Positions 671 through 26,231 of a DNA stretch of 26,231 nucleotides are shown here, in pieces. The notes beneath the pieces were generated by a model. The model saw nothing but the letters and a program-made list of their open reading frames with translations. It did not search any database and was not told the DNA's origin. The stretch spans positions 1 to 26,231 of the IMG/VR virus record IMGVR_UViG_3300044742_000087. One strand, 5' to 3'. Source of the stretch: a virus. The position numbers were made by a program, and so were the translations under genes. Positions within the stretch are counted from its first letter, which is position 1. Each line of letters opens with the position of its first letter.

Positions 671-1324
671 GTGACCGACTTCCTGTACGCGACCGTCTCT
701 GAGATCAAGGAACGCCTGTACATCCAGGACACCGAACGCGACCGCGCGTGGCTCGACGTGGCCCGCGGCGCCTCCCGCTGGGTCGAAGAGGTGCTCGGCC
801 ATCGGTTCTACTCCTCCGCGGATCTCGATCCCGACAACCCGACCGAGACGCGCTACTACGAGATCCCGCCGTACGAGAACCCGCTCGTGCTGGAGGTCGA
901 CGACCTGTTGAGCGTGACCACGCTCCAGTCCGATCCCAACGGTGACGGCACCTTCGACTACACATGGACGGTCACCACCGACTACTGGCTCGGGCCGCGC
1001 AACGCCCTCGCCAGGGGCAAGCCCTACAGCCAGATCCACAAGGCGTCCTACGCCGGGCGGTACTGGTTCCCGTCCTATCCGAACAGCGTCAAGGTCGTCG
1101 GCAACTTCGGCTACTGCACCCTGGCGAACGTTCCGGCCGGCGTCAAGCAGTTGACCCTGATCGTGGCAGAGGTCACGGCCCGCCCATTGCTCGACCTGAC
1201 GATGGCGGGTGTCAACTCGTATCAGGTCGGGCCAGAGCTGCGCGTCACGATGGACGCGGGCCAACTGCCGCCGATGGCGCAGAAACTCATCGAGACGTAC
1301 CGCGAGCCGGTCTACATCGTCTGA
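671..1324 (+). CDS. Phage head-tail connector, gp6-like
   Basis: A 217-residue protein starting at GTG 671. The N-terminal part reads as helical: an 'ATVSEIKERLYI' helix, then 'RAWLDVARGASRWVEEVLGHRF', as in the HK97 gp6/SPP1 gp15 connector family, where short helices form a ring under the portal. The middle (about 75-165) is beta-rich with many Tyr/Trp residues, and a final helix (TLIVAEVTARPLL) is also typical. The protein is longer than the usual 100-120 aa because of this beta-rich insertion, as in connectors of some GC-rich phages. Its place just before head closure, tail completion and tail tube genes fits. It would add the first ring to the portal of the DNA-filled capsid. Confidence 0.72.
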   Translation: MTDFLYATVSEIKERLYIQDTERDRAWLDVARGASRWVEEVLGHRFYSSADLDPDNPTETRYYEIPPYENPLVLEVDDLLSVTTLQSDPNGDGTFDYTWTVTTDYWLGPRNALARGKPYSQIHKASYAGRYWFPSYPNSVKVVGNFGYCTLANVPAGVKQLTLIVAEVTARPLLDLTMAGVNSYQVGPELRVTMDAGQLPPMAQKLIETYREPVYIV

Positions 1325-4553: not shown

Positions 4554-4943
4554 GTGGCATTCAATCATGGCAATATCGCCAACTTCACGCTGGGTGCAAA
4601 CGACCTCAGCGACTACGTAACAAGCGCGTCGATCGACGGCACGCGCGAGATCCGCGACATCCGCCCCATCGGCTCGAACCCCGTCTCGCGTGTGGTCGGC
4701 CCGTACATGGCGACGATCAACCTCGAAGGCGCCTACGACCCCGCGTTCGACGCCATCATGGCGCCGCTGTTCCTGGCGGCATCGCCTGCGACGGCGACGT
4801 TCGACTTCGAGCCAGCCGGCACCGGGCAGCGGTCCTTCACGGGCAACGCGCTGGTCGCCACGTATCGCGTGGATGCGTCAGGTTCTGACGTTGCCACGTG
4901 GCGCGTGACGTTGGCTGTGGTCGGCACGGTCGCGAACGCATAA
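4554..4943 (+). CDS. Major tail protein (tail tube)
   Basis: 129 residues starting at GTG 4554, about 10 bases after an AGGGAG site. It is beta-rich: 'ANFTLGANDLSDYVTSASIDGTREIRDI' opens the protein as in many short tube proteins ('n-l-s-x-y-v-x-s-x-x-x-x-x-x-x-d-x-x-x-v'), followed by 'MATINLEGAYDP' and a closing 'ATWRVTLAVVGTV'. It is shorter than lambda gpV because it lacks the C-terminal Ig domain. It is followed directly by the tail assembly chaperone pair, the most conserved order in siphophage genomes. It would form the stacked hexamer rings of the tail tube. Confidence 0.78.
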   Translation: MAFNHGNIANFTLGANDLSDYVTSASIDGTREIRDIRPIGSNPVSRVVGPYMATINLEGAYDPAFDAIMAPLFLAASPATATFDFEPAGTGQRSFTGNALVATYRVDASGSDVATWRVTLAVVGTVANA

Positions 4944-5536: not shown

Positions 5537-8281
5537 GTGCCCTCGATAGCCGACCTCTTCATCTCAGTGTCCAGCGACGTGACCGGCGCTATGTCTGGTT
5601 TGACGGCTGTCGACCAGAAACTCAGCGGCACGACGACGTCGATGGCGAACGCGACCGCCGTCGCCATTCCGCTGGCTGCTGCTGCGACAGCCGTGGGCGC
5701 GGGGTTCCTGTCCAGCATCGATGTCGCGTCGGACTTCGAGCATCAGATGAACGGCATCAAAGCCGTCATGTCACCCGCAGAAGTCCTTGAATTTGGCGAT
5801 GCGGTTGAAGACCTAGCGATGAAGCTCGGCAGTGAGACGGTGTTCTCTTCGAGCCAAGCGGCGGGTGCGATTGAGGAGTTGATCAAGGCGGGCGTGCCGC
5901 TGTCTGCCATTCTTGGTGGTGCTGCCGCATCGGCTCTGGACCTCGCGTCAGCGACGGGCACCGATGTGTCGCAGGCCGCGAACTTCGCCGCGACGGCTAT
6001 GAATACGTTTCACCTGTCAGCCTCGGAACTGCCGGCGATCATGGACACGATCTCAAACGTGTCGAATGCCGTCGCCACGGATGTCGGTGGGCTGCAACTC
6101 GGGTTCGCGCAGATCGGGCCGGTTGCGGCGGGGCTGGGCATATCGTTCGCTGACACGGCTCAGGCTCTCGGCATCTTTGCGCAGAATGGACTCAAGGGAT
6201 CAGATGCGGGCACGTCGCTCAAGACGATGCTGCTCAATCTTGACCCTTCCACGAAGGCGCAGACCGCGGCGTTCAAGGAACTCGGGCTTATCACGGCAGA
6301 CGGGACGAACCAGTTCTTCGACGCGACCGGCAGCGCGAAGTCCATGTCCGAGATCTTCGAGATTCTCAAGCAGAGCACCTCCACCCTGACGGATCAGCAG
6401 AAGATCAACCTGCTGCAAACAGCGTTCGGGACCGATGCGGTGCGCGCGGCGACCATCGCTGCGTCCGAGGGCGCGGCGGGGTGGGACAAGGTCACGGAGT
6501 CGATGGACAAAATGGGCGGGGTGCAGGTCGCCGCCGCTCAGCGGAACGCTGGCCTTGAAGGGGCGATGAATAGCCTCGGTGGGTCGATAGAAACGGTCCA
6601 GATCACGATCGGGAACCTGTTCCTGCCCATCCTGACGGCAATGGCTCAGGGTTTGACCGTCGTCATCAACGCGTTCTCGGGACTCGACCCCAACATTCAA
6701 ACCGCCATCATCGCAGTCGTCGGCATCGCCGGGGCAGTCGCGGGGCTGGTCGCTGCCTTTGTTCTGCTCGGCCCCGTGTTCGCAGCGGCGGGCGCTGGCT
6801 TCGCGATCATTACGGCGGCTGCTGCCCCGGTGCTCATCCCGATCCTGGCGATAGCCGCCGCGGTGGCCGCGCTGAAACTCGCGTGGGATACCGACTTCGC
6901 GGGAATCCAGGGTGTCACGGCCGAGGTCTGGGCCGCGATTCAGCCCATGTTCGAGAACATCAAGAACCTGTTCGCCACTATCGTCTCGGCGCTCGCCCCC
7001 TTCGTTGAAGCCTTCCGCGGCGAGCTGCCGGGGGCGATGCAGGCGTTCAGCGATGCGCTCGGTCCGCTCCTGGCGCAACTGCCGAACCTGATCAGGATGA
7101 TCGGTGACTTCTGGAACGCCGTGAGCGCGATCATCCAACTGCTGGCCGCGGGCGACTTCTCGGGTGCATGGGACGTGCTCGTCAGCGCGGTTACGGTCGC
7201 CGCGCAGAACGTTGGCAACGCGCTCGGCAACCTCGCCACGTTCATCGGGGACTGGCTCGCGAGCGTCATTCCCGGCATCATCGCCAGCGCACCTGACGTC
7301 TGGGCCGCGTTCATCGCGAGCGCGTGGGAAGTTGGCGTGCGGGTTGCTGAGGCACTTGGCAACGTCCTGACGTTCATCGGTGACCAACTCGGGCAGGCCA
7401 TCCCTGCGCTCATCGAAGCCCTCCCTGATCCGTGGGAGCCGTTCCTGCGTGGAGCGTGGGAGATCGGGACGCGGATAGCCGAAGCCTTCGGCAACTTCAT
7501 GGTGTTCATCGGGGAGACGCTGGCGGCGATCCCGGCGCTGATCCAGGGGCTCGGTGACTTCTTTGGCCCGTTTATCGCTGCGGCCTGGGAGATCGGCACC
7601 CGCATCGCTGAGGCGTTCGGCAACTTCCTGAACTTCATCGGCACCGCGCTGGCAGGCATCCCCGACCTGATCATGGGCCTCGGAGACTTCTTCGGGCCAT
7701 TCGTCAACGCGGCCTGGGAGATCGGCGGCAGGCTCGCGGAAGCCTTTGCCAACTTCCTCGACTTCATCGGTACCGCCATCTCGGGCATCCCGGCCATGAT
7801 CGAGGGCCTCGGAGACGTGTTCGGCCCGCTCGTGACCGCGGCGTGGAACCTCGGCGGGCCGCTGGGTGACGCGATCATGAACGCGGTCGGCTTCGTGGGT
7901 CAGGCAATCCAGGGCATCCCGACGTTCATCGAAGGACTGGGCGACATCTTCGGCCCCATCGTGTCCGCGGCCTACGATCTTCAGGACCGCATCGCCGCCG
8001 CGATCGAGCCCATCAAGCAACTCCTGGCGAACACGTTCGGCGCGTTCTGGGAATGGCTCACCGGGGCTATTCAGGTGCCCACCGGCGGCGGCACAGGCAC
8101 CGGCGGTACGGGCGGAACCACGACGATGCCCGGCCCAACTGGTCCCATCGTGTCGGTCGGCACGCTGATCATCTCGACGCAGGCCGAGGCAGACGCATTC
8201 CTCCAGCAGGTTGCCGATGCGGTGCTCGCCTCAGCTCGACGGGTCACGCCACCGGCCACCGGCGCCACGGCACTGCCATGA
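5537..8281 (+). CDS. Tail tape measure protein
   Basis: 914 residues from GTG 5537. Residues 65-330 match the TP901-1/Pfam tape-measure core: 'DFEHQMNGIKAVMSP', then 'VFSSSQAAGAIEELIKAGV', then a Ser/Ala-rich 'ATDVGGLQLGFAQIGPVAAGLGIS' region and 'GLKGSDAGTSLKTMLLNL'. A hydrophobic, Ala/Gly/Val-rich stretch at about 387-450 may insert in the host membrane. Residues about 590-820 are a 43-44-residue tandem repeat. The C-terminus is Gly/Thr-rich. Tape measure proteins set tail length at roughly 0.15 nm per residue, so a tail near 137 nm is expected. The protein lacks an obvious lysozyme or peptidase domain. The start follows the chaperone stop by one base. Confidence 0.93.
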   Translation: MPSIADLFISVSSDVTGAMSGLTAVDQKLSGTTTSMANATAVAIPLAAAATAVGAGFLSSIDVASDFEHQMNGIKAVMSPAEVLEFGDAVEDLAMKLGSETVFSSSQAAGAIEELIKAGVPLSAILGGAAASALDLASATGTDVSQAANFAATAMNTFHLSASELPAIMDTISNVSNAVATDVGGLQLGFAQIGPVAAGLGISFADTAQALGIFAQNGLKGSDAGTSLKTMLLNLDPSTKAQTAAFKELGLITADGTNQFFDATGSAKSMSEIFEILKQSTSTLTDQQKINLLQTAFGTDAVRAATIAASEGAAGWDKVTESMDKMGGVQVAAAQRNAGLEGAMNSLGGSIETVQITIGNLFLPILTAMAQGLTVVINAFSGLDPNIQTAIIAVVGIAGAVAGLVAAFVLLGPVFAAAGAGFAIITAAAAPVLIPILAIAAAVAALKLAWDTDFAGIQGVTAEVWAAIQPMFENIKNLFATIVSALAPFVEAFRGELPGAMQAFSDALGPLLAQLPNLIRMIGDFWNAVSAIIQLLAAGDFSGAWDVLVSAVTVAAQNVGNALGNLATFIGDWLASVIPGIIASAPDVWAAFIASAWEVGVRVAEALGNVLTFIGDQLGQAIPALIEALPDPWEPFLRGAWEIGTRIAEAFGNFMVFIGETLAAIPALIQGLGDFFGPFIAAAWEIGTRIAEAFGNFLNFIGTALAGIPDLIMGLGDFFGPFVNAAWEIGGRLAEAFANFLDFIGTAISGIPAMIEGLGDVFGPLVTAAWNLGGPLGDAIMNAVGFVGQAIQGIPTFIEGLGDIFGPIVSAAYDLQDRIAAAIEPIKQLLANTFGAFWEWLTGAIQVPTGGGTGTGGTGGTTTMPGPTGPIVSVGTLIISTQAEADAFLQQVADAVLASARRVTPPATGATALP
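7304..8020 (+). repeat. 43-44-residue tandem repeat inside the tape measure gene
   Basis: Units begin at 7304 (132 bases), 7436, 7565, 7694 and 7823 (129 bases each), with a degenerate partial at 7952; a weaker unit may precede 7304. Each unit has a core like 'GPF-x-x-AAWEIG-x-R-x-AEAFGNF-x-x-FIG' then 'IPAxIxGLGDFF'. Units 2-4 are closest to each other, while the edges have diverged. The unit length suits a helical rod, so a change in copy number would change tail length by about 6.5 nm per unit. Confidence 0.85.
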
Positions 8282-8623: not shown

Positions 8624-9925
8624 ATGCCCGCCATCGCCACGGTCTACACGCCGTACGTTGCGGCGACGCTAAACGGCGCGCCCATCGAGGGCGTCCGCAA
8701 GGCGCGCGTCATCTCAACGTTCACCGACCCGGTGACCAAAATCTACGTGAGCCTCTATCCCCGCATCGCCTGGGCAGAAGGCGACACGCTCGCGGTGACC
8801 ACGGGCAGCGGAACGAACAACGTTCTGTCGGGCACCGCGCAGATTTACACGGGCAAATCGTCGAACACCGGGCCAGAGTTCAACCTCACGGCGTACGGTC
8901 GGCTGTTTCTGGCGCAACGCTATACGAACAACACGCCCAACGGCACCACGCTGGCCGATCTCATCGGTGGACCGGCAACGGACGAGGATATCGCGATGGC
9001 GGTGCTCGACGTGGTTGGTATCCCATACAACCCTGCCGATATCGGCGGCACAGGCATCGTGCGTGGCGCGCTGGCTCCTGACGCCTACACCTGGCGACAG
9101 GGCGAGTCCGCGTTGGCGTACCTGATTCGTCTCTCGAAGGCGAGCCTCGGCTACCGGATGATTGAGCGGATCAACGGGGATATCGCGCGCGTGCAGGTCG
9201 TTGGCCGGCCGCAAGTCACCCCCGACTTTTCCATGACCGAAGGCGTGGACATCTTCCCAGGAGCGTCCGCGGAGTACGACACGCTGGGGAAGTACACGGT
9301 CGTCGAGGTCAACGGCTTCGACTTTGGAGAAGGCGTAGGGCCTGTCAGCTACAAGCTCCCGGACCCGTCGCCTGCTGGCGTGCAGGCGTATGTGTACTCC
9401 AGCGAGATGATCGAGCGGGCCTCGGAACTCGACACGGGCGGCGGGATTTCGGCCCAGAACGTCGCGGTCAACTTCGTTGAGCCGGAAGTCAACCGCGTCA
9501 TCGTCCACGTCAGCGGGGTGAAAACACCGCGCGACGATACGTTCAGCCCAGGCCAGACGCATCAGATCACGTCAGAGCGGCTCGACCTGAACGCCGCGTT
9601 CCTGTGGCTGTACTCGGTCACGCGCGAGGTCGACGAGCAGTGGTTTACACAAACGCTCGACTACGCCGGTACCGCGACGGTGCCTGGTGGCTACGACCAG
9701 TCGCCTGTTGATGCGACCTTCCCGGCAGGCATGCAGATGTACGTGCTGCCCACGCCAGCCTATCGCCGCATGCGGGCGTACATCGGCCTCGACGGCGGCT
9801 ATACGGGGCCACCTGACGAGGGCGATATGCCAGCGGGCGTGCAGTTGAACCCGCAGCCGATCCCGCCGAAGCGCGGCCGTGACTATAGCTACGAGCAGCC
9901 GACAAGCAACGTCAGAAGCCCATAG
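8624..9925 (+). CDS. Tail hub / gpD- or Tal-like baseplate protein
   Basis: 433 residues starting one base after the upstream stop. The first 100 residues are strands ('ATLNGAPIEGVRKARVISTFTDP', 'SGTAQIYTGK'), followed by 'GESALAYLIRLSKASLGYRM' and 'NGDIARVQVVGRP' at about 160-195. This resembles the gpD/gp27-like hub, where a 'G-e-s-x-w-d-x-l-x-x-l-a' helix comes before a 'd-x-x-G-x-l-x-v' strand. A long beta-domain follows, and the C-terminus (about 395-433) is Pro/Gly-rich and probably flexible. In siphophages this protein forms the trimeric tip closing the tube and carrying fibres. No peptidase motif was seen, so it is a structural hub rather than an enzyme-bearing Tal. Confidence 0.68.
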   Translation: MPAIATVYTPYVAATLNGAPIEGVRKARVISTFTDPVTKIYVSLYPRIAWAEGDTLAVTTGSGTNNVLSGTAQIYTGKSSNTGPEFNLTAYGRLFLAQRYTNNTPNGTTLADLIGGPATDEDIAMAVLDVVGIPYNPADIGGTGIVRGALAPDAYTWRQGESALAYLIRLSKASLGYRMIERINGDIARVQVVGRPQVTPDFSMTEGVDIFPGASAEYDTLGKYTVVEVNGFDFGEGVGPVSYKLPDPSPAGVQAYVYSSEMIERASELDTGGGISAQNVAVNFVEPEVNRVIVHVSGVKTPRDDTFSPGQTHQITSERLDLNAAFLWLYSVTREVDEQWFTQTLDYAGTATVPGGYDQSPVDATFPAGMQMYVLPTPAYRRMRAYIGLDGGYTGPPDEGDMPAGVQLNPQPIPPKRGRDYSYEQPTSNVRSP

Positions 9926-17449: not shown

Positions 17450-17800
17450 GTGGTCATCGTTCTGAGCGCATTCGACATCAACGACCTCGTACGGATCGGC
17501 AACCATACCGGGACCAATGGCAATGGTGATTCCCGCGCCGCCTTCAAAGATCCTCTCGGCGTAGCGACCGACCCGTCAGCCGTGACGGTGCGCCTGCGGA
17601 AACCAAGCGGCGCCGTCCTCATCTATGGGTGGCCGACCGTCGCGGCAGACGGCATCCTCGTGAAAGAGGCGACCGGCAAGTTCTACATCGACGTGCTCAT
17701 CGACGAGGCGGGCACGTGGTATTGGCAGCTCACGGGGACAGGCACCGTCCAGACGAGCGAGGCGGGCGAGTTCTGGGTGAGGCCCACCCTTGTCGGGTGA
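17450..17800 (+). CDS. Small Ig-like phage protein
   Basis: 116 residues from GTG 17450. The layout 'FDINDLVRI' then 'DPSAVTVRLRKPSGAVLIY', 'GKFYIDVLIDEAGTWYWQLTGTG' and a closing 'EAGEFWVRP' matches a common small phage protein: 'd-x-G-d-x-v-r-l ... D-P-t-x-V-t-x-x-v-x-x-P-d-G ... Y-x-x-x-x-x-x-x-x-a-G-x-w-x-x-r-x-x-g-t-g-x-x-x-x-x-e-g-x-f-x-V'. It is a single immunoglobulin-like domain. Such genes sit near tail or lysis genes and probably decorate the virion. The GTG follows GGAGGGCCGCG at about 8 bases, a good site. Confidence 0.7.
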   Translation: MVIVLSAFDINDLVRIGNHTGTNGNGDSRAAFKDPLGVATDPSAVTVRLRKPSGAVLIYGWPTVAADGILVKEATGKFYIDVLIDEAGTWYWQLTGTGTVQTSEAGEFWVRPTLVG

Positions 17801-17828
17801 CGGGGAAGTGGTGAACGAGGACCACAAC

Positions 17829-18437
17829 ATGAGTGACGCCGCCAGGGGCTCGAACGGTGGGGGAAGGGACACGAGTGTCAGTTCGCTGATCTACACCGAG
17901 GAGAAGTCCGAGATCCTATGGCTCGCTCATGAGCGTAGCCACGAGCTGGAACAGAAGGCACTGGAGGTCGCGCTAGCGGCGGCGGATAGGCAAGTCGAAG
18001 CAGTCCGCGCATCCTTGCGAGAGATCATCGATGCTGAGCTACGGAAGGCTACCTCGGACTACCGGAATCTGCTCGAACAAACCAGGAAAGATTGGATGCA
18101 CCACAACGAGGTGCACGTGGCGCATGGGATCGCGCACGAGCAACAGCATCGCCAGACCCAGGAAGCCCTCGACAAGGCTGAGAAGACGGCGCTCACGCTA
18201 TCCAACACGTTGAGCACCGACGTACAGCGAGCCGTCCTGGCGCAGGCAACCATGATCACGAAGGACCAGATGGCGGCTGAGGTCAAGGCAATCGACGCAC
18301 GTATCAGCCTGCTGGAGCGCGGCACGGCGATCATTGCTGGGCGAGACAACGGCATTTCTACGAGTTGGGCGTTCGCTGTCGCACTCATCGGTATTTTGCT
18401 TGGAGCGGGTGGCCTCTTGCTCGCGCTCACACGCTGA
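17829..18437 (+). CDS. Coiled-coil protein with C-terminal membrane anchor, holin-like position
   Basis: 202 residues from ATG 17829, chosen because GAGGA lies 7 bases upstream; in-frame GTG codons at 17790 and 17808-17811 are alternatives. Residues 24-165 are a continuous charged helix, probably a coiled coil, with a His-rich 'HHNEVHVAHGIAHEQQH' patch at 91-107. Residues 178-200 (TSWAFAVALIGILLGAGGLLLAL) form one transmembrane segment. Similar coiled-coil-plus-membrane proteins are encoded beside endolysins in many phages of high-GC bacteria and are often annotated as putative holins or minor tail proteins. A membrane-facing lysis role is the best guess; the sequence does not prove it. Confidence 0.6.
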   Translation: MSDAARGSNGGGRDTSVSSLIYTEEKSEILWLAHERSHELEQKALEVALAAADRQVEAVRASLREIIDAELRKATSDYRNLLEQTRKDWMHHNEVHVAHGIAHEQQHRQTQEALDKAEKTALTLSNTLSTDVQRAVLAQATMITKDQMAAEVKAIDARISLLERGTAIIAGRDNGISTSWAFAVALIGILLGAGGLLLALTR

Positions 18438-18449
18438 TCGGCATATGGC

Positions 18450-18695
18450 ATGGTTCCCCCTCCCCAAGTTATCTGGCACGGCACCTCGGCTGAGGGCCTC
18501 GAACTGGTCGCGGCGATAGCCCGCAACTGTGAGTGCGTCACGAACCTCGGCGGCGTGACCACCTCGATGTGCTCGCCGCATAAGGCGATGCTGGACGACC
18601 AGCGGTTCATGGATGGCGTCCTCGCCTACCGACACCAGCGCGAAGCGTTGCTGTGCGAAGAGTGGACCACCGTCAGAAAACACGGCGATGGCTGA
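18450..18695 (+). CDS. Small conserved Cys-containing phage protein
   Basis: 81 residues between the coiled-coil protein and the lysozyme. C28-x-C30 and a later C42 could bind a metal, and the second half 'CSPHKAMLDDQRFMDGVLAYRHQREALLCEEW' is a helical segment I recognise, in the form 'C-x-x-H-x-x-M-x-x-D-Q-x-x-x-D-x-L-x-x-x-R', from small proteins beside lysis genes of other phages. The overlap with the lysozyme start (18,688-18,695) argues for co-translation. Function unknown. Confidence 0.55.
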   Translation: MVPPPQVIWHGTSAEGLELVAAIARNCECVTNLGGVTTSMCSPHKAMLDDQRFMDGVLAYRHQREALLCEEWTTVRKHGDG

Positions 18696-19491
18696 CACGC
18701 TGTACGGGGCGGATATCTCCAATCACCAGGGACCGCCTGCCACGTACCGCGGGCAGCCGTGGTATCAGGAGTCGCAGTTCATCATCGCGCAGGCGATCCC
18801 GCGTCCGTTGCCGGATGGCTACGTGGGCGAGCAGTTGCGTGCGGCGCAGGCTGATGGCAAGCACTGCGGCGCCTACGTCTGGCTATGGCATGACCCGACC
18901 TGGCGGATGGGCGACGGGTCCGTCGAGGACGACCAGCGGCGCCGACTCGCCACCATTCCTGACGACGTGCAGCTCGACATGCGCCTGTGGCTCGACGTCG
19001 AGGACAACCAGAGCACGGGATGGAAGGTGCCGATCCCTCAGCGGGTCGACGACGTGAAGCGCGCGCTCGCGGTGCTCGACGAGTGGAGTGCTGCACGGGG
19101 GCTGCCCGCGGCGGGTATCTACTGGAGCGATTGGTTCATCAGCCTGCTGTTCGGTGGGCAGGATTACTTCGGGCGCAGGCAGTGGAAGGCGCACTACGGC
19201 GCGCCGGCGGGGAGCCTGATCCACGACACGTGCGTGGCGCACCAGTACACGTCAACGCCGGTGGATCAGAACATCATGCTCGCGAGCGAGATCGTGACCG
19301 CGGGGGCGCCGCCTGCGACTGACCCGTGCGCCGGACTGGTAACCGCGCTCGCCTATCTCGGTGACGATCTGCCGCCGCGGCTCGAAGCCGCGATGAAGGG
19401 CAAGATGACGGCAGCGGATAAGACCGAGGTGCTCGCAGTCGCCGCGGAGCTTCGGCGGGTGCGCGAGCAATTCATCGGCCCGAAGTCGTGA
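18688..19491 (+). CDS. GH25-family lysozyme (endolysin)
   Basis: 267 residues from ATG 18688; the frame is open back to 18613, but only the ATG at 18688 puts the GH25 domain right at the N-terminus, as usual. Family features: 'YGADISNHQG' (6-15) holding the first Asp (D9), 'LRLWLDVEDNQ' (99-108) with the catalytic Asp103/Glu105 pair, 'AGIYWSDWF' (142-150), 'RRQWKAHYGAP', and 'VAHQYTSTPVDQNIML' (183-198) near the C-terminal end of the barrel. GH25 enzymes cut the N-acetylmuramic acid-GlcNAc bond of peptidoglycan. A short helical C-terminal region (about 215-265) without a known wall-binding motif follows. No signal peptide, so release needs a holin or it acts as an exported virion enzyme. Confidence 0.87.
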   Translation: MADTLYGADISNHQGPPATYRGQPWYQESQFIIAQAIPRPLPDGYVGEQLRAAQADGKHCGAYVWLWHDPTWRMGDGSVEDDQRRRLATIPDDVQLDMRLWLDVEDNQSTGWKVPIPQRVDDVKRALAVLDEWSAARGLPAAGIYWSDWFISLLFGGQDYFGRRQWKAHYGAPAGSLIHDTCVAHQYTSTPVDQNIMLASEIVTAGAPPATDPCAGLVTALAYLGDDLPPRLEAAMKGKMTAADKTEVLAVAAELRRVREQFIGPKS

Positions 19492-20159
19492 CCTTCGGAG
19501 TGAACCTGGACTTCAGGTATGACGCCGGCTACCCGCCGCTGCTCACCGCTCGACGCCTCGGCCTGACGTGGGTGCGCGTGATCAGCCTGCCGGTGATGGA
19601 GTACTGGGCCGAGCAACTCCTGCTGCATGGCTGCCAGGTAATCGCCGTCTACACGGGCGAGTCGGAAGCCGCGGGCCGTTACGTCATGAACAGCGCGAGC
19701 GTCTTGCAAGTAGGTAACGAGCCCTTTATGGGCGGCGCCGCGACCTGGCCCGCGGGCAACGCGAACGCCTTCGTCAAGAAGTGGCTCGAAGTGCGCGACC
19801 TCGTCTGGGACAAGCACGGCCAGTGGTTCCCCCTGATGGGGCCGGGCATGTGGGTACAGGACTATTCCAAGTGGGCGAGCATCGCGGACCGTATCGAAGG
19901 CGTCACAACTGCGGCGGTCCACGTCTACGGGCATAGTCCCGAGCAGGCGCGACCCCTGCTCGAACGCTACCGAGCTGTGCGGCCCGACATCCCGCTCTTC
20001 TGCTCCGAGTGGATGGCGCGATGGCCCGACACGCTCGCGCTCGCGAGGACGATCGACACGTTCTGCACAGGACGCTGCTGGTACACCTGGGACAATCCGG
20101 GGGAGCCGCATCACACGTTAGCCGCCACGCCCGAGATGGGCATTCTTCTGACCGCATAA
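19488..20159 (+). CDS. Glycoside hydrolase-like TIM-barrel protein
   Basis: 223 residues from GTG 19488, overlapping the lysozyme stop by 4 bases. Motifs of clan-A glycosidases are visible: 'LGLTWVRV' (24-31), 'VLQVGNEP' (72-79) with Glu78 in the acid/base position, 'TTAAVHVYGHS' (140-150) and 'PLFCSEWMA' (169-177) with Glu174 in the nucleophile position. The barrel is compact, missing several usual loops, and has no signal peptide or carbohydrate-binding module. It may attack a wall polysaccharide, capsule or glycan receptor. The tandem with GH25 suggests a combined lysis or entry role. Substrate not predictable. Confidence 0.72.
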   Translation: MTFGVNLDFRYDAGYPPLLTARRLGLTWVRVISLPVMEYWAEQLLLHGCQVIAVYTGESEAAGRYVMNSASVLQVGNEPFMGGAATWPAGNANAFVKKWLEVRDLVWDKHGQWFPLMGPGMWVQDYSKWASIADRIEGVTTAAVHVYGHSPEQARPLLERYRAVRPDIPLFCSEWMARWPDTLALARTIDTFCTGRCWYTWDNPGEPHHTLAATPEMGILLTA

Positions 20160-20174
20160 AGGGGGAGCACCCGC

Positions 20175-20315
20175 ATGGCTCTGAGTATTGATCTGGTTCT
20201 CATCGTGATTGGCCTCGTGCTGTTCGCACTGGCGACGTTCAGCGTGCCGACGCATCCTCGGCTCAACCTCATCGCAGCCGGGTTGTTCTGCTGGCTGTTG
20301 ACGCTACTCGTGTGA
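20175..20315 (+). CDS. Tiny two-transmembrane protein (46 aa)
   Basis: Begins ATG 20175 after GGGGGAG at about 8 bases. Two hydrophobic helices at about residues 6-24 and 30-46 are joined by a short 'TFSVPTHPRL' turn. Small proteins of this pattern (a 'L-x-L-V-L-x-V-I-x-x-V-L-x-x-L-A' helix, then 'R-L-N-L-x-A-x-G-L') recur next to endolysin genes of phages of GC-rich bacteria. It is a good holin or pinholin-type candidate by size, topology and location, but no assay-based evidence exists here. Confidence 0.6.
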   Translation: MALSIDLVLIVIGLVLFALATFSVPTHPRLNLIAAGLFCWLLTLLV

Positions 20316-20330
20316 TGAAAGGACAGCGAC

Positions 20331-20465
20331 GTGGAATCGCTCCCTACGGATGACGTCACGTTCGCTGTCGTGATTCTTGGCCCCATCGCGATCGGGACGC
20401 TGATCGGGGCACTCGTCTGGTATCTCATGCGCCGATCGCGTGGTCCCGACAAGTTAGAGAAGTAA
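20331..20465 (+). CDS. Tiny single-transmembrane protein (44 aa)
   Basis: Begins GTG 20331 after AAAGGACAG. An acidic head (MESLPTDD), one hydrophobic helix (about 11-33) and a basic tail (MRRSRGPDKLEK) imply an N-out, C-in orientation by the positive-inside rule. It could be an antiholin, a lysis helper or a membrane anchor. Its stop and the next start share one base (TAATG). Confidence 0.55.
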   Translation: MESLPTDDVTFAVVILGPIAIGTLIGALVWYLMRRSRGPDKLEK

Positions 20466-20581
20466 TGGATAAGACGGCGTTCGTCGTCGGCGTAGCGTTC
20501 ACGCTCACCGCGGGCGGGCTTATTGGCGGCGCGTGGTTGCTCGTGTGGGCGATACGCCGCCTGCTCCAGGGGGGAACGTGA
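20465..20581 (+). CDS. Tiny single-transmembrane protein (38 aa)
   Basis: Begins ATG 20465, overlapping the previous stop, and ends at TGA 20579-20581, which overlaps the next ATG. One hydrophobic Gly-rich helix (about 6-30) is followed by a basic 'RRLLQGG' end. Too short for family assignment; the tight overlaps at both ends argue it is really translated. GGGGGAACG near its end serves as the Shine-Dalgarno site of the following gene. Confidence 0.5.
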   Translation: MDKTAFVVGVAFTLTAGGLIGGAWLLVWAIRRLLQGGT

Positions 20582-20928
20582 TGAGAAGTGTGTTACGAGC
20601 GATAGCGATGGCGGGCCTGCTCGTGGCCTGCACGTCGCTGACGGTGGGTGCGGCGCCTGAGCCGCGGCTGCAACGAATCGAGGTCAGTTCGTCGGGTAGC
20701 ACCCTGACGGTGAGCGGCACGGTACTCGGACTTGTTCAGTCTGAGGGCACGCTCAGCGTGGACGTGCTCGTGCGTGTTGTCTGCACAGACGGCTCGGGGA
20801 TGGACTGGGGCGTGAGTATGGACGCAACCCTGAGCGGTGCGAACCGGCAGGAGGTCGGCGTCTCGCTACCGCTGTTCTGTCAAATCGCGAGCGCACAGAT
20901 TCTCGAAACGAGCGTGACCGTTACGTAG
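20581..20928 (+). CDS. Probable lipoprotein of the lysis region
   Basis: 115 residues from ATG 20581, which overlaps the previous stop and lies about 5 bases after GGGGGAAC. A basic start and hydrophobic core lead to L14-V15-A16-C17, a good lipobox, so it is likely exported and lipid-anchored; cleavage at 'VGA-AP' is an alternative. The rest is one beta-domain with two Cys (about 64 and 100) that may pair. Placed last in the lysis gene run it could be a spanin-like or wall-facing lysis factor, or a surface protein that blocks superinfection. No family recognised. Confidence 0.6.
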   Translation: MRSVLRAIAMAGLLVACTSLTVGAAPEPRLQRIEVSSSGSTLTVSGTVLGLVQSEGTLSVDVLVRVVCTDGSGMDWGVSMDATLSGANRQEVGVSLPLFCQIASAQILETSVTVT

Positions 20929-20967
20929 GACACCCGCGCCTATCAGCACCCCCGCTGTCGCGGGTGA

Positions 20968-21007
20968 AGCCCTCTCTCTGGCTACGGCCGGGGAGAGGGC
21001 TCTTTTC
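20968..21007 (+). terminator. Rho-independent terminator at the end of the virion/lysis operon
   Basis: A perfect 9-base stem, AGCCCTCTC (20968-20976) with GAGAGGGCT (20993-21001), is followed by CTTTTCTG. A weaker inverted repeat (CACCCGCG and CGCGGGTG) lies just upstream. It ends the 20-kb plus-strand gene run. Its right arm covers the last codons of the minus-strand HTH gene. There is no T run for transcription from the right, so it works mainly for the plus strand. Confidence 0.82.
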
Positions 21008-21251
21008 TGTTTAACAGAGTTTCGAGATCGCTGCGCCTGATCCGCCAGCCGGACTGATCCGACACCTTGGTGGCGGGAAGCCATCCGACCTTGATCCAGC
21101 GGCGCACGGTTTTTTCGGCAACCTTCCGCTCCTGCGCCACATCCCGCACGGTCAGGAGCGGTTCACCCACCTTGGGTGCCAATGTAACACCATAGGCGCG
21201 ATTGGTATAGACGGTTGGGCGCTTATGGTCTACAGTGGGCGAGACAATCAT
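20982..21251 (-). CDS. Excisionase/MerR-type helix-turn-helix DNA-binding protein
   Basis: 89 residues on the minus strand, the only convincing reverse gene here. Residues 32-79 match the excisionase-family HTH: 'LLTVRDVAQERKVAEKTVRRWIKVGWLPATKV' then 'GWRIRRSDLETLLNR'. Proteins of this type bind DNA as Xis-like directionality factors or small regulators. The first 30 residues lack family resemblance. The annotated ATG overlaps the ATG of a plus-strand gene by two bases, so the true start may lie further inside, for example TTG at 21182. It sits between the two modules with convergent end on the left and divergent start on the right. It may control either the secretion module or excision. Confidence 0.78.
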   Translation of the reverse strand: MIVSPTVDHKRPTVYTNRAYGVTLAPKVGEPLLTVRDVAQERKVAEKTVRRWIKVGWLPATKVSDQSGWRIRRSDLETLLNRKEPSPRP

Positions 21252-21369
21252 GCAGATACCGCTCCCGTGCCCTGTCCTGAAGAGCGGGCATCACTACGTG
21301 CGGTTCACGGATCGGTGGGACGACGGCAAGCGGCACTGCACCGGATGTGGAGCCGTGGAGAAGGGCTGA
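21250..21369 (+). CDS. Tiny Cys/His protein (39 aa)
   Basis: ATG 21250 to TGA 21369. C7, H14-H15, C30 and C33 (in HCTGCG) could form one zinc-binding unit. It lies divergently from the HTH gene and heads the plus-strand secretion-module run. A GGGCGAG at 21237-21243 is a modest Shine-Dalgarno match. Small zinc-ribbon proteins of about 40 aa of this pattern are common in phages; function unknown. Confidence 0.45.
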   Translation: MQIPLPCPVLKSGHHYVRFTDRWDDGKRHCTGCGAVEKG

Positions 21370-21374
21370 GGTGC

Positions 21375-21479
21375 ATGGACGTGGCGACGATCTTCGTTAC
21401 TGGGTTCGTTGTCTACTGCGCGCTGGTTGGCTCATCTATCGTGAGTTGCGCCATCTGTGAGTGGCGGCGAGGGCACTGA
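21375..21479 (+). CDS. Tiny transmembrane protein (34 aa)
   Basis: ATG 21375 to TGA 21479, preceded by GCTGAGGTGC with a GAGG about 4 bases away. One hydrophobic helix spans nearly the whole chain (about 4-26), ending 'EWRRGH'. The following TrbL-like gene starts at the next base. Could be a pilus-assembly accessory or a translational leader. Supported mainly by tight packing. Confidence 0.4.
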   Translation: MDVATIFVTGFVVYCALVGSSIVSCAICEWRRGH

Positions 21480-22418
21480 GTGCTGATCGGCCTCGCGCTG
21501 CTCGCGTTTCAGGTCGCTAACCCGTTCACGCCGCCACCGCCCGCACAGGTCGTGAACGAGACGCGCGTGGTCAACGAAGTCCACGTGATGGCGCCGCCAC
21601 CCGATCCCGAGGTCATCGCAGAGTCGACCGTGACCAGCTCGCGCGCCATGCTGACGATGGTCATCGCGCCGCCGCCGGTGCAGTGGGCAAACGAACTCCT
21701 GAATCTGCCCGACATCTGGCGCAGGACGCCACCGGACCTGACCTACAACCACCCCGCGATCAAGGAGCGCTCAGGGCTGATGTACGGCGCCGCGCTCGGA
21801 TTGATCGCGCTCGCCGTACTGGTCGCGGGGATCTCGCGCGCACTCGGGAGCGAGCACTTCGAGTGGCGCATCGTTTACGCGACGGTGCTCGCGCTCGGCA
21901 GCCTCGTGTGGTGGCAGGTCGGCATCGACCTGAACAACGCCATCTGCAACCTGATCAACGCACCGGACCTCCCGTCGCTGATCCGTCCGAACCTGACCAT
22001 CCCCGATCCCACCGACGAAGCGGGCGCGGTCATCCTGACGCTGGTCTACGCCATCATCGCGCTCATGCTCCTGGCGAGCCTGCTGTTCCGCCTCGGGATG
22101 CTCATGATCCTGATCGCCATCGGTCCGCTCGCGCTGTTCTGTTTCGCCACGCCGCAGAGCGAGGGCCTCGCGCACAAGTACGTCAGCCTGTCCGTAGGAT
22201 TGCTCTTCTCCCAGGTACTGATCGTCCTCGGGCTGAGCCTCGCGCAAGTCCTGAATAGTCTCGGCACCGGGCTAGCAGGAACGCTGCTCAGCATGATTGT
22301 CCTTCTGCTCCTGCCCAAGGTGCCTGGGTTGCTCTCGTCAGGCATGCAGTCGGGTGGGCGCGGCATGGTGAGCACGATCGCCTCGATGGCTATCTTCCGC
22401 CGGCTCAGGTTCCGATGA
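21480..22418 (+). CDS. TrbL/VirB6-like polytopic membrane protein of a T4SS
   Basis: 312 residues from GTG 21480. A signal-like or membrane start (1-13) precedes a Pro-rich exported stretch (16-95). Then come about five to six transmembrane helices (roughly 99-121, 131-149, 181-204, 206-224, 236-258, 264-285). The segment 'LGMLMILIAIGPLALFCFATPQ' followed by 'SEGLAHKY' (205-234) matches the conserved 'l-x-l-l-x-l-l-i-a-i-a-P-l-A-l-x-c-x-x-x-P-q-t-e' block of TrbL/VirB6 proteins in conjugation systems of Actinobacteria and Chloroflexota. VirB6 proteins form the inner-membrane channel of type IV secretion. The order before an NlpC/P60 enzyme, pilin, PrgI and VirB4 supports this. Confidence 0.72.
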   Translation: MLIGLALLAFQVANPFTPPPPAQVVNETRVVNEVHVMAPPPDPEVIAESTVTSSRAMLTMVIAPPPVQWANELLNLPDIWRRTPPDLTYNHPAIKERSGLMYGAALGLIALAVLVAGISRALGSEHFEWRIVYATVLALGSLVWWQVGIDLNNAICNLINAPDLPSLIRPNLTIPDPTDEAGAVILTLVYAIIALMLLASLLFRLGMLMILIAIGPLALFCFATPQSEGLAHKYVSLSVGLLFSQVLIVLGLSLAQVLNSLGTGLAGTLLSMIVLLLLPKVPGLLSSGMQSGGRGMVSTIASMAIFRRLRFR

Positions 22419-22969
22419 AGTGGATACTCGGCGCCGCGGCGCTCTTCCTCTTCCTGCAACTGCCCATGATTGGGATCTGGACCTCGTCGAACTGGGCGCC
22501 GTGGTGGTTTTCTTCTCCCCAGATGGCCGCGCCGGTCGCGCCGGGCCAGGTGCCCGTTGCCGCGATGGCTGCGCCACAGGGACCGCTAGCGTCGGACTCC
22601 ATGCCGCTGATGCAGGCCGCGCAGAAGTGGATAGGCGTGCCGTACCTGTTCGGTGGGGCGAGCATGCGCGGGATTGATTGCTCGAATTTCGTCTACCTGA
22701 CGGGGCGCGACATGGGCTTGAACCTGCCGCCGCCCGCGGAGAACCAATGGCACATCACAAGGAGGGTGACTGACCCGCGACCTGGCGATCTTGTGTTCTT
22801 CAAAGGGACGTACTGCCTACCGGGCAACTGCCCGACGATTACCCACGTCGGTTGGTACGTGGGCGACGGAATGATGATCTCAGCGGCAGAGCCAGCGGTC
22901 GGGCGACAGAGTCTCTCGTCGCCGTACTGGCGCTCTCACCTCGCCGGTTTTGGCCGGCTGGCGGGGTAA
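22415..22969 (+). CDS. NlpC/P60 cell-wall peptidase of the T4SS module
   Basis: 184 residues from ATG 22415, overlapping the previous gene by 4 bases. Residues 4-20 form a signal peptide or membrane anchor; a Pro/Ala linker follows. Residues 64-184 are an NlpC/P60 domain: 'AQKWIGVPYLFGG' (69-81), 'GIDCSNFV' with the catalytic Cys89, 'RPGDLVFF' (122-129) and 'ITHVGWYVG' with the catalytic His144. The last is followed by 'DGMMISAAE' as usual. Such enzymes cut peptide stems in peptidoglycan, and in Gram-positive-type conjugation systems they open the wall for the secretion channel (the job done by VirB1 elsewhere). Two Cys in 'YCLPGNC' (134, 139) may form a local disulfide. Confidence 0.87.
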   Translation: MKWILGAAALFLFLQLPMIGIWTSSNWAPWWFSSPQMAAPVAPGQVPVAAMAAPQGPLASDSMPLMQAAQKWIGVPYLFGGASMRGIDCSNFVYLTGRDMGLNLPPPAENQWHITRRVTDPRPGDLVFFKGTYCLPGNCPTITHVGWYVGDGMMISAAEPAVGRQSLSSPYWRSHLAGFGRLAG

Positions 22970-22983
22970 AGGAGGCATCTCCC

Positions 22984-23220
22984 ATGTTCACAGGGATAGG
23001 CGCGTTCATTACCGCTATCGTCACCAACGCGCAGACGATTGCCCTCGCGGTGATTGCCCTCGCGGTGCTCTGGGCTGGCTACCAGTACCTGACGGGCAAC
23101 CCGCAGGGCGGCAAGGAATGGCTGCGGAACGCCTTCGTCGGCGGCGCGCTCGTGTTGCTGGCAACACCGATTGCCAACGGCATCCGCGGCGCGCTCCAGG
23201 GTGGCGTTGGAGGTGGATGA
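22984..23220 (+). CDS. VirB2/TrbC-like pilin or small membrane subunit
   Basis: 78 residues with a near-perfect AAAGGAGG 9 bases before ATG 22984, the strongest ribosome site in the module and a hint of high expression. Two hydrophobic helices (about 12-33 and 49-68) flank a polar turn 'YQYLTGNPQGGKEW'. This copies the TrbC/VirB2 plan ('G-x-x-y-x-x-a-g-g-n-x-e-g-x-x-x-x-r-n-a-x-i-G-a-x-l-v-l-l-A'). The C-terminus is Gly-rich. It would be the pilus subunit of a conjugation apparatus. Confidence is limited because small two-helix proteins are easy to mistake. Confidence 0.65.
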   Translation: MFTGIGAFITAIVTNAQTIALAVIALAVLWAGYQYLTGNPQGGKEWLRNAFVGGALVLLATPIANGIRGALQGGVGGG

Positions 23221-23689
23221 GCGAGACATCATCGAGATCCCGACCGAGCTGGAGCGCAGCAGTGAGTTCCTCGAATACACCGTTGCCGCAGTCGCGCTGC
23301 TCAGCACGCTCTGGGCGATCAACAACGCGGCCATCCTGCCGTTCAGCCCGTGGTATGTCATCCCGCCCATGCTGCTCGTGGCCGGCATGTGGGTGCTCAC
23401 GGGCGAGGCTGCCACGAACTGGCAAGGGGTTGGCAGCATCGCTACAGGGCTGCGCAACCGGATCGGTCTGCGCCGCGCACATGAGTGGATACAGGCGTTC
23501 GCCCACTACGTTCACCTCGTGCACGTGCCGGTCTGGAGGGCGGCATGCGTAGCGTTCTGGAACTCAACCCGAGCACGAACTACGCGATGGCTGCAACGCA
23601 GTCGCGACGGGATCAACTCCGCGCGTTCAGCCACGTCCTCATGGGCCTGGGGCATCCGCTGCACCTTGTCTCGTCGGCTCGCTCGGTAG
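23201..23689 (+). CDS. PrgI-like membrane protein of the T4SS module
   Basis: 162 residues if started at GTG 23201, inside the end of the pilin gene; TTG 23207 and GTG 23213 are alternatives. 'RDIIEIPTELERSSEFLEYT' followed by two close transmembrane helices (about 24-43 and 48-66) resembles PrgI-family proteins, which sit just before VirB4 in Gram-positive-type conjugation operons (VirB3 equivalent). After residue 115 it overlaps the VirB4 gene by 145 bases and looks less like a designed protein (Arg/Trp/Ser-rich), so its real 3' end or frame is uncertain. A frameshift or lost stop is possible. Confidence 0.55.
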   Translation: MALEVDERDIIEIPTELERSSEFLEYTVAAVALLSTLWAINNAAILPFSPWYVIPPMLLVAGMWVLTGEAATNWQGVGSIATGLRNRIGLRRAHEWIQAFAHYVHLVHVPVWRAACVAFWNSTRARTTRWLQRSRDGINSARSATSSWAWGIRCTLSRRLAR

Positions 23690-25119
23690 CAGGCTTCGAT
23701 GATTGGGCGCACCCGCCACTCCTCGATCGTCGGTGGTATGCCGTGGTGAACGCCACGGACGAGGCGCAGCGCGCGGCCCGCACCCGCACGCTACAGGAAT
23801 CCTTGGAAGGAGTCGGGCTGCGATGTGGTGCCTCTTCTGTTGCTGGCGACCCTCCCCCTACTGTGGTCAGCCCTGCCGCGGTGCGGGATGGCGACGAGTG
23901 GGCAGCGACCCTGGTGCTGCGCCGGTGGCCGAGGGAGGTCGCGCCGGGGTGGCTCGGGAACGCGATAGCGGGCGATCTCCCCGTGGACCTCGGGATTCAT
24001 ATCAGGCCGCAAGACCCGCAGCAGATCGCGCGCTGGCTGCGGTCGCAGCAGACGACGCACTCGCAGGCGAACGCCGCGAAGCCTGACGCCGGTTCGGAGC
24101 TGGCGAGCGGTGACGCCGAGTCGGTCAGGAGGAAACTCGTCGCGAGGACTGACCGTCCCGTGCGCGTGGCGATTGCCCTGACGGTGCGGGCGCCCGACCT
24201 TGTGACGTTGCGGTCGCGCCAGGAGGAACTCGCGTACGACATTGGCCTCGCCCTCGGAGACGCGCGGCCTGCCACGTTCGAGCAGGACCGCGGGCTGGCG
24301 GCAACGATGCCCACCGGCGAATGCAACCTGCTCGGCGTGTGGCGCACGCTCGACTGCACCAGCGTGGCGTCCACGTGGCCCTTCCAGCCGGCGACGGTCA
24401 ACCATGCGAACGGGGCGCCGCTCGGCACCACAGTGCGCGGCGGCATGCTGGTGAAGCTCGACCCGTTCGACGACTCGCTGAATAGTTTCAGCGGCGTGGT
24501 GCTCGCGATGGTGGGCGCGGGGAAATCGTACTTTCTCAAGTTGCTCGCGCGGCGGCTCGATGGCGTCGAGGTGCTCGTCGTGGAGCACAACGACCCGCCC
24601 GAATATTCGGGCGTGCGCGGTGTCACGGCGGTCCCGCTGAGCGGCAACATGACCGAGCGCACGGCTCAACTGCGCGAGTTCGTCACGCGCCTGTGGGAGA
24701 CGGCCCGGGCTGACCCCCGACCGCGCATGCTGATCCTCGACGAGCTGTGGTCCCTGCTGCGCGACGAGGGCCTCGCCTCGCTCGTCGAGGAGATCGCGCG
24801 CATGGGGCGCAAGTATTACCTCAGCCTGTGGATCGCCACACAACAGATACAGGAGTTGATCGAGTCCCCGTACGGGATGGCCGTGCTCAACAACGCGGCG
24901 ATCCGCGTGTACCTTCAGCAGGACGGTCCCGACGTGGAACTGCTCGCCAGGAAGATGCGCCTCAGCGATGACGCGCGGCAGTTCCTGAGCGGTGCAGCTC
25001 GCGGGCAGGCGTTGCTCGATGTGCGCCGCATGCTGGTGCCGGTCAACGTCCAGGCGACGAAGGCAGAGCATCGAGAGATCACGACCGACCCGCGCGAGCG
25101 GCTACTCATCCCTGCTTGA
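23545..25119 (+). CDS. VirB4-like T4SS ATPase
   Basis: 524 residues from ATG 23545, chosen because GGAGG stands 6 bases before and because codons upstream in this frame look like noise. Residues 1-300 form the variable N-terminal domain. Walker A is 'AMVGAGKS' (321-328): Lys327/Ser328 are intact but the first Gly is Ala. Walker B is 'RMLILDE' (394-400) with Asp399/Glu400. The 'ARMGRKYYLSLWIATQQIQEL' (418-438) and 'AVLNNAAIRVYLQQD' (446-460) segments are classic VirB4/TraC C-terminal blocks. VirB4 powers pilus assembly and substrate transfer at the inner membrane. At 524 residues it is smaller than typical VirB4 (600-900), mainly in the N-terminal part. Confidence 0.87.
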   Translation: MRSVLELNPSTNYAMAATQSRRDQLRAFSHVLMGLGHPLHLVSSARSVAGFDDWAHPPLLDRRWYAVVNATDEAQRAARTRTLQESLEGVGLRCGASSVAGDPPPTVVSPAAVRDGDEWAATLVLRRWPREVAPGWLGNAIAGDLPVDLGIHIRPQDPQQIARWLRSQQTTHSQANAAKPDAGSELASGDAESVRRKLVARTDRPVRVAIALTVRAPDLVTLRSRQEELAYDIGLALGDARPATFEQDRGLAATMPTGECNLLGVWRTLDCTSVASTWPFQPATVNHANGAPLGTTVRGGMLVKLDPFDDSLNSFSGVVLAMVGAGKSYFLKLLARRLDGVEVLVVEHNDPPEYSGVRGVTAVPLSGNMTERTAQLREFVTRLWETARADPRPRMLILDELWSLLRDEGLASLVEEIARMGRKYYLSLWIATQQIQELIESPYGMAVLNNAAIRVYLQQDGPDVELLARKMRLSDDARQFLSGAARGQALLDVRRMLVPVNVQATKAEHREITTDPRERLLIPA

Positions 25120-25141
25120 CAGATTGGAGTAAGGTGGATGC

Positions 25142-25285
25142 ATGGAGAACCTGACGTGGATTCCCTACATCGTGGTGTGGGTGGGGCTGCTGCTCTTCCC
25201 GTTCACGCGATGGCTGCTCTTCTCCGCGGTCACGCTGACGCTCGGGCTGTTGCTCGGCGCGCGTGACGACGTTCTCCCCGACTGA
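25142..25285 (+). CDS. Small transmembrane protein (47 aa)
   Basis: ATG 25142 to TGA 25285. It has two hydrophobic stretches (about 6-20 and 24-40) and an acidic end (RDDVLPD). A GGAG and an AAGG lie upstream at 9-16 bases. The last 23 bases overlap the start of the VirD4-like gene. It may be a partner of the coupling ATPase in the membrane. No family recognised. Confidence 0.5.
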   Translation: MENLTWIPYIVVWVGLLLFPFTRWLLFSAVTLTLGLLLGARDDVLPD

Positions 25286-26231
25286 CGCCTACAACACCCT
25301 GCTCCCGCTGTGGGCGGACAGCACGACCCGGATGGGCCTGCTGTTCGCTATCGCAGCGGGAGTTTTGTTGCTCCTGACCAGGCCGCAGAAGCCTCGGGTG
25401 TTACAGCGGCGTGACAAGCCATTGCCGCCGCTGCCCGCGGTCGGCAAGCCCTCGCCGTTCCACTCGCTGCGCCACAGGCACGCCCAGCCCGTCAACGTGG
25501 GCGGCGTGACCTTCGATCTGGCGTGGCAGCACATCGCCGTCGTGGCGACCACCGGCGCCCGCAAGTCAACGCTCCTGGCCGAACTGGCTGACAAGGTGGG
25601 GAAGCCCTGCCTGGTGATCACGGGCGACCAGGCACCACCGCTGGAGAACTGGACGCGCTCAGTGGGTGGTCGGGTCTGGACCGCTCGCGGCGGCATCGGT
25701 TGGTATCCGTGGGGTGGCGATCTGGAGCATGCCACGCAGCGCATCGAGCACATGTTCGCCGCGACAGGTGGCGACGTCGGGGTCCATCGCGCGATGGTCC
25801 AGAGCGTCGTACGCAAAGCATGGGGCGGCGTGCACTCCCACGAGCGCACGCTCGATCAGATCATCGAGGCGCTGCCCGATCGCAGCCGCAGCGGCTCGTC
25901 GGCCATGATGGCGGACAACTGGACCGCTCGCCTGGAGAGTCTGCGCGACACGCTGGGCGGCTCGCTCGGCACGGACCTCGACATCGTCGAGACGTTGCGC
26001 GCCGGCACCACGGTGATGATCGCACTGAACAGTTTTACCGACGTCTCCAACCGGGAACGCTTCGCCAGCATCGCCGTGCTGGAGGGCCTGCGTGCGGCCA
26101 ACGATGTGGGCGGCATCGCGCTGGTGTTCGACGAGGTCGGCCTGATCGGCGCGAAGCTCTTTGACGATGCCGTGCGTGTCCTGCGGGTGCGGCTGTGCAC
26201 CGGGATGTTCGCGAGCCAGTTGTTTGACGAC
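25263..26231 (+). CDS. VirD4/HerA-like coupling ATPase, 3' partial
   Basis: 323 residues are visible from GTG 25263, and the frame is open to the right edge. Residues 23-39 (RMGLLFAIAAGVLLLLT) form a membrane helix, followed by a basic Pro-rich linker and the ATPase core. The P-loop is 'ATTGARKST' (95-103): Lys101/Ser102 are kept, but the first Gly is Ala and the Gly before the Lys is Arg100. Walker B is 'IALVFDE' (285-291). This resembles VirD4/TraG coupling proteins and the wider HerA/FtsK group, which bring DNA or protein to a T4SS channel. No relaxase is seen nearby. The missing glycine raises doubts about ATP binding. Confidence 0.72.
   Translation, partial: MTTFSPTDAYNTLLPLWADSTTRMGLLFAIAAGVLLLLTRPQKPRVLQRRDKPLPPLPAVGKPSPFHSLRHRHAQPVNVGGVTFDLAWQHIAVVATTGARKSTLLAELADKVGKPCLVITGDQAPPLENWTRSVGGRVWTARGGIGWYPWGGDLEHATQRIEHMFAATGGDVGVHRAMVQSVVRKAWGGVHSHERTLDQIIEALPDRSRSGSSAMMADNWTARLESLRDTLGGSLGTDLDIVETLRAGTTVMIALNSFTDVSNRERFASIAVLEGLRAANDVGGIALVFDEVGLIGAKLFDDAVRVLRVRLCTGMFASQLFDD

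Follow-up and report, generated by a model that had tools for sequence, protein, structure and literature searches.

Mobile DNA is commonly sorted by its mode of movement, with phages in one class and conjugative elements in another. The window analysed here is the whole of the IMG/VR virus record IMGVR_UViG_3300044742_000087 (26,231 bases, classed linear, GC content 0.648). Its genes run from a connector, tail, and lysis run, past a strong terminator and an HTH_17 gene on the reverse strand, into T4SS-type genes. This order raises two questions: whether the phage genes and the T4SS genes belong to one replicon, and what a T4SS would do for a phage. A family of uncultured bacterial viruses with most parts of a plasmid DNA-transfer machine may, as predicted from sequence, use cell contact in addition to particles for its spread.

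Gene content of the window

Matches to PHROGs confirmed the connector and tail genes as those of a tailed phage. On the plus strand, a head-tail adaptor (671..1324; PHROG_442, E 2.6e-15; 44-46% identity in genomes G005 and G001), a major tail protein (4554..4943; PHROG_10528, 5.9e-12), and a tape measure protein (5537..8281; PHROG_1533, 6.8e-80) were identified. A neck protein (3641-4108, 3.7e-7) and a tail chaperone (4953-5411, 8.5e-11) were also matched. The major tail protein is 51-53% identical in the T4SS-bearing genomes G006, G010, and G011, and a conserved tail-region protein (8624..9925, plus strand) shows 46-86% identity across the close family. The GH25-type lysin (18613..19491, plus strand) matched Pfam at a sub-threshold 4.1e-4 and is 64% identical to the lysin of G005; small ORFs lie between it and the terminator. 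The initial annotation had called this a complete siphovirus tail. A complete tail is a reasonable reading, but the fibre genes had no profile matches. No terminase, portal, capsid, or integrase gene was found in the window, which is a 26.2-kb fragment.

Some other genes in and around this run were noted. Genes for a DegT aminotransferase, nucleotide-sugar enzymes, and glycosyltransferase-like proteins lie within the head module of the phage family (window 2-667; G005 21771-41369; G011 rc 51603-52754). The window encodes a long protein built of repeated QPTATGTLTR units (15848-17437). A gene with RDTAxRxRL-type repeats precedes the lysis genes in G010, and similar genes are present in G006 and G011.

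The junction was as first described, with a terminator and a reverse HTH gene between the two blocks. The intrinsic terminator (20968..21001, plus strand) has a 15-pair stem followed by a T-rich tail (CTTTTCTGTT). The HTH_17 regulator (20982..21251, minus strand; PF12728, 8.9e-10) is excisionase/MerR-like and divergent from the T4SS genes, and a homologue 48% identical to it adjoins the T4SS module of G010. The module is headed by an 84-aa ORF with one TM segment (21225..21479, plus strand), which was defined by ORF and hydropathy only and belongs to no known family.

The T4SS-type genes follow on the plus strand, and profiles, homologues, and motifs together supported the set that had been proposed (TrbL, NlpC/P60, VirB2-type, PrgI-like, VirB4, and VirD4-like). 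The TrbL/VirB6-like polytopic membrane protein (21480..22418) matched PF04610 at 1.6e-4, just under the Pfam cut-off. A homologue is conserved in all four T4SS-bearing relatives, with 51% identity to that of G018, 32% to G006, and 31% to G010; its structure model was too poor for use (pLDDT 48). The NlpC/P60 wall hydrolase (22415..22969; PF00877, 3.2e-21; 44% identity to G010) has an N-terminal TM segment and would take the VirB1 role. In G011 and G018 this slot is filled by an SLT_3 lysozyme instead (1.2e-16 and 1.7e-15), and the G006 protein shows a C39-like motif by eye only, with no Pfam match. The VirB2/TrbC-type pilin-like protein (22984..23220, corrected start) matched TrbC at 1e-5 and T4SS_pilin at 4e-5, and its G011 homologue matched TrbC at 3.9e-12. 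The PrgI/VirB3-like protein (about 23213..23689, corrected start) overlaps the start of VirB4. It had no Pfam match and was recognised by its position, an IPTELER motif, and 37% identity to the G018 homologue. Moreover, the N-terminal membrane extension fused to VirB4 in G006 and G010 matches this protein.

The VirB4-family ATPase (23545..25119) lies in an ORF that is open from 23485 and probably begins at the corrected start of 23545. Its Walker A (GAGKS) and Walker B (LILDE) motifs are intact. It matched the NCBIfam CD1110-type VirB4 (1.4e-25), TraC (1.5e-21), the Pfam TraG P-loop family (1.2e-6), and the VirB4 structure 4ag5 in PDB (1.1e-14), and it is 57% identical to VirB4 of G018 and 54% to that of G011. 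VirB4 is the firmest T4SS identification in the window. The same protein matched PHROG_2666, labelled terminase large subunit, at 1.5e-19. We rejected this label, as four relatives carry separate canonical terminases, and the PHROG itself may consist of misannotated VirB4-like proteins from phages.

The VirD4-like coupling ATPase (25263..26231) is cut by the contig end. It had no VirD4 profile match and DUF87 alone was returned, at 0.15. It is 25-28% identical to the VirD4-like proteins of G006, G010, G011, and G018, and aligned with that of G006 over about 310 residues (E 3e-14). Its Walker A is the non-canonical TTGARKS, in which Arg replaces the Gly before Lys. No VirB8-like protein was recognised by Pfam among the module proteins scanned.

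Position of the module in related phage genomes

Two window proteins, the major tail protein and that at 8624-9925, served as queries for relatives. G006, G010, and G011 were found via their tail proteins and then searched for VirB4, while G018 was found via VirB4. These are four further phages from other metagenome assemblies, each with the module, a terminase, and tail genes on one contig. Among the proteins tested against PHROGs, TerL was identified in all four, MCP in G006, G010, and G018, and portal in G018, with a weak portal match in G006.

G010 has 59,165 bases and an exact 127-bp terminal repeat, and thus it is a closed circle and complete. Here the module occupies the opposite strand and is placed after or before the lysis genes and the one integrase found, between the two. 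In G006 (54.8 kb), terminase, portal, capsid, tail, and lysin genes are followed by TrbL, pilin-like, PrgI-VirB4, and VirD4 genes, and then by ParB-like, integrase, and replication genes. Both contig ends of G006 (rc 52995-end and 18-788) fall within the same repeat gene, indicating that this genome is essentially a whole circle. Its tyrosine integrase (PF00589, 4.4e-27) has homologues in G010 and G018. In G018 (58 kb), the module is between the integrase and the terminase. A second short tyrosine-recombinase-like ORF of G018 (rc 45554-46099) is on the far side of the module from the integrase. The G011 contig is 78 kb long; a tRNA-Met (CAT) gene was noted at 8989-9063.

Phage genes thus stand on both sides of the module in G006, G010, and G018, and T4SS genes in host DNA outside the phage ends were not seen. 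In each genome the tetranucleotide use of the module agrees with that of the rest, and its GC content is 1-2 points higher. From this gene content we conclude that the module is very probably integral to the phage genome and that both blocks form one replicon, as the initial annotation had supposed. Since module and phage genes occur together in relatives from separate assemblies, mis-assembly or adjoining host DNA is very unlikely for the family. The suggestion that the element is a phage-plasmid gained no clear support: tyrosine integrases are present and no plasmid Rep or ParA was noticed by eye, although G006 has a ParB-like gene.

The core order TrbL, pilin, PrgI, VirB4, VirD4 is kept, with the wall hydrolase before or after TrbL. 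The position and orientation of the module vary among the phage genomes. G005 (55 kb, near-complete) has a structural block collinear with the window; its contig ends 2 kb past the lysin and has an integrase at the other end, and it had no VirB4 match and lacks the module. Therefore, by its distribution among these sequences, the module is an exchangeable phage cassette, neither flanking host DNA nor an assembly join. There are two VirB4 types, one in the window, G018, and G011, where PrgI is separate, and one in G006 and G010, where PrgI is fused. The window and G018 share 57% identity in VirB4 versus 25% in the major tail protein, which suggests that phages have exchanged the module.

The hosts and published relatives of this family were also sought. 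Viral and genome contigs were scanned with VirB4, VirD4, and NlpC as single-protein queries, with no match; a genome scan with the tail alignment found no host prophage, and megablast to known phages gave no match. Terminase and capsid searches pointed to no single host group. A plasmid from Chloroflexota groups with one VirB4 type, with 52% support only. A search of open-access journal papers returned none describing the family. VirB4 matches labelled 'Bacteriophage sp.' from human faeces were considered as phage precedents and rejected, as they are unannotated and unverified fragments.

Possible functions of the module

The VirD4-like proteins of G006, G010, G011, and G018 continue at the C-terminus into an extension in which an HNH_3 motif was recognised. 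This fusion was seen in the four relatives; the window VirD4 is cut by the contig end. HNH_3 was scored at 1.5e-5 in G018, which is at the Pfam cut-off, and at 6e-4 in G011, or 2.7e-5 for the C-terminal piece alone. In G006 and G010 the motif is visible by eye in the alignment only, and the DH pair of G006 reads GH. The extension is similar to free-standing phage HNH nucleases (BLAST, about 40% identity, E 2e-8). VirD4 was modelled with AlphaFold (mean pLDDT 63.6, and below 50 in the HNH part). The model has a membrane helix at the N-terminus, and a fold search matched its ATPase core to HerA, TrwB, and VirB4. In all six records the relaxase families PF03432, PF08751, PF13814, and PF03389 were silent; the window itself is a fragment.

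Contact-dependent DNA transfer fits best with this set of parts, which includes a pilin, a wall hydrolase, the two ATPases, and a domain on the motor that likely cuts DNA. We propose that the window comes from a temperate tailed phage whose family is uncultured, and that a compact T4SS cassette of the monoderm type (regulator, wall hydrolase, TrbL/VirB6, VirB2-like pilin, PrgI/VirB3, VirB4, and VirD4) lies near the integrase/lysis part of its genome. The cassette is probably expressed apart from the late virion genes, because a terminator and a divergent regulator precede it in the window and it is on the opposite strand in G010. Its products might form a channel across the wall, either in lysogens or at excision, by which phage DNA, excised and circular, would pass to a touching cell. 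The HNH-type domain on VirD4 of the four relatives might take over or assist the DNA cut of a relaxase. Transfer of this kind without a standard relaxase is the most likely function of the module, and we give it a probability of roughly 0.4. Taken as one blended explanation, an integral T4SS module together with contact-dependent transfer stands about evenly poised. The core slots of a T4SS are occupied and that of the hydrolase is taken by differing enzymes (NlpC/P60, SLT_3 lysozyme), a pattern expected if the channel works. However, no relaxase of the four families searched was found, no VirB8-like protein was recognised, and the Walker A of the window VirD4 is non-canonical. Furthermore, HNH_3 domains are also common in free-standing homing-type nucleases of phages, and thus the VirD4-HNH fusion need not serve transfer.

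The same fusion could belong to an exclusion or defence device derived from a T4SS, in which a membrane channel and a VirD4-HNH motor catch DNA arriving from a superinfecting phage or a conjugative element and cut it. Such a device would agree with the HNH-type domain that the motor has in four phages and with the lack of a relaxase match in the families searched, and the fold search also returned HerA-type antiphage motors. The cassette behaves like accessory genes as well, being absent in G005 and moved or inverted elsewhere. The pilin and the wall hydrolase are nevertheless present although internal DNA cutting needs neither, and we consider a defence role unlikely. Protein-secreting T4SSs use the same core parts. 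The module might therefore be an effector or signalling T4SS that secretes protein, not DNA, into neighbouring cells, and the lack of a relaxase among the families searched agrees with this. Yet, next to the module, no conserved effector/immunity pair was seen in those genomes that were read, and the nuclease domain is on the motor and not on a separate secreted protein. Protein secretion is slightly less probable than a defence role.

Less probable again is that the cassette is a remnant or passenger from a conjugative element that has no present function in the phage. The non-canonical Walker A of the window VirD4, the lack of a relaxase match, and the absence of the cassette from G005 would all agree with this reading. 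However, five phages, divergent enough for VirB4 identity to fall to about 22%, have open frames with the VirB4 motifs kept, which argues for long purifying selection, and no pseudogenes were seen. Finally, tandems of an ICE and a prophage are known, for example in streptococci (PMC5053989), but a prophage adjoining an unrelated ICE or host T4SS, one of the initial proposals, or a chimeric assembly, is very improbable and for the family largely refuted. G010 is a closed, phage-size circle in which one integrase was found, and G006, G010, and G018, which come from different assemblies, all have phage genes on either side of the module.

Known systems and Bacillus phage G

One of the closest known systems is the monoderm-type conjugative T4SS of ICEs and plasmids (CD1110/TraC-type VirB4, PrgI, TrbL, NlpC/P60, VirD4), with which the module shares core parts and a similar gene order. 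The module differs from these in that no relaxase was found, that VirD4 is fused to HNH in the relatives, and that the carrier is a tailed phage; the best plasmid VirB4 matches were about 24-32% identical. Such a module, ordered and recurrent in temperate tailed phages that are otherwise complete, with nuclease fused to VirD4 and no match to the relaxase families searched, would blur the line between phages and conjugative elements.

Several elements that combine phage and transfer functions have been described. The Streptococcus pyogenes prophage Phi1207.3 moves by a conjugation-like route of unknown mechanism (PMC4260502). Neither 'type IV' nor 'relaxase' occurs in the text of that paper, and the module offers a testable idea for conjugation-like movement of such prophages. 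The CMGEs of S. suis are ICE-prophage tandems, that is, two elements with typically three att sites (PMC5053989). They resemble the window family in that a conjugation region with VirB4 shares one stretch with phage genes, whereas the family has one replicon with the module inside phage genes. By analogy with these elements, phi-SgaBSJ27_rum from streptococci is best interpreted as another such tandem. The temperate Tyrovirus Thrax phages encode one plasmid-like T4SS protein and a replication-relaxation protein (gp17/gp18; PMC9703825), and unlike the window family they have a single T4SS protein and no channel set. Derivatives of P1-like phage-plasmids gain oriT/relaxase and lose phage genes (PMC10879196, PMC12977533). 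Phage-plasmids mix phage with plasmid or transfer functions, while the window family keeps its phage gene set and integrase.

The initial annotation had stated that no described tailed phage was known to have a full VirB2/3/4/6/D4 set. This needs to be qualified, as an overlooked T4SS-like gene run is present in an isolated tailed phage, Bacillus phage G (NC_023719, 8972-15337, gp150-gp156), in which gp150, gp153, gp155, and gp156 look like VirB2, VirB6, VirB4, and VirD4. The gp150 protein is T4SS_pilin-like (3.7e-6, at the cut-off), gp153 matched TrbL_4 (1.8e-11), and gp155 is a VirB4 (TraG P-loop, 1.6e-15). The VirD4/HerA-like gp156 is weak by profile, and gp154 is PrgI-like by position and size only. 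Moreover, the window VirB4 had its best phage match in gp155 (2e-47 over 97%). Phage G is thus like the window family in its run of pilin, TrbL, VirB4, and VirD4-like genes. It is unlike the family in being a 498-kb giant, otherwise unrelated so far as shown, in which no wall hydrolase or HNH fusion was recognised. A wider reading would be that a temperate-phage lineage spreads by both virions and contact-dependent transfer, using a relaxase-less T4SS and a VirD4 motor with HNH, and that a T4SS-like set was also gained by the unrelated phage G. This is put forward tentatively and is rather doubtful as a whole. Phage G is a cultured system, and its T4SS-like run makes the question open to testing now. 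In GenBank, gp155 is labelled VirB-like and gp156 MsbA-like, and the VirB label is carried by gp155 only.
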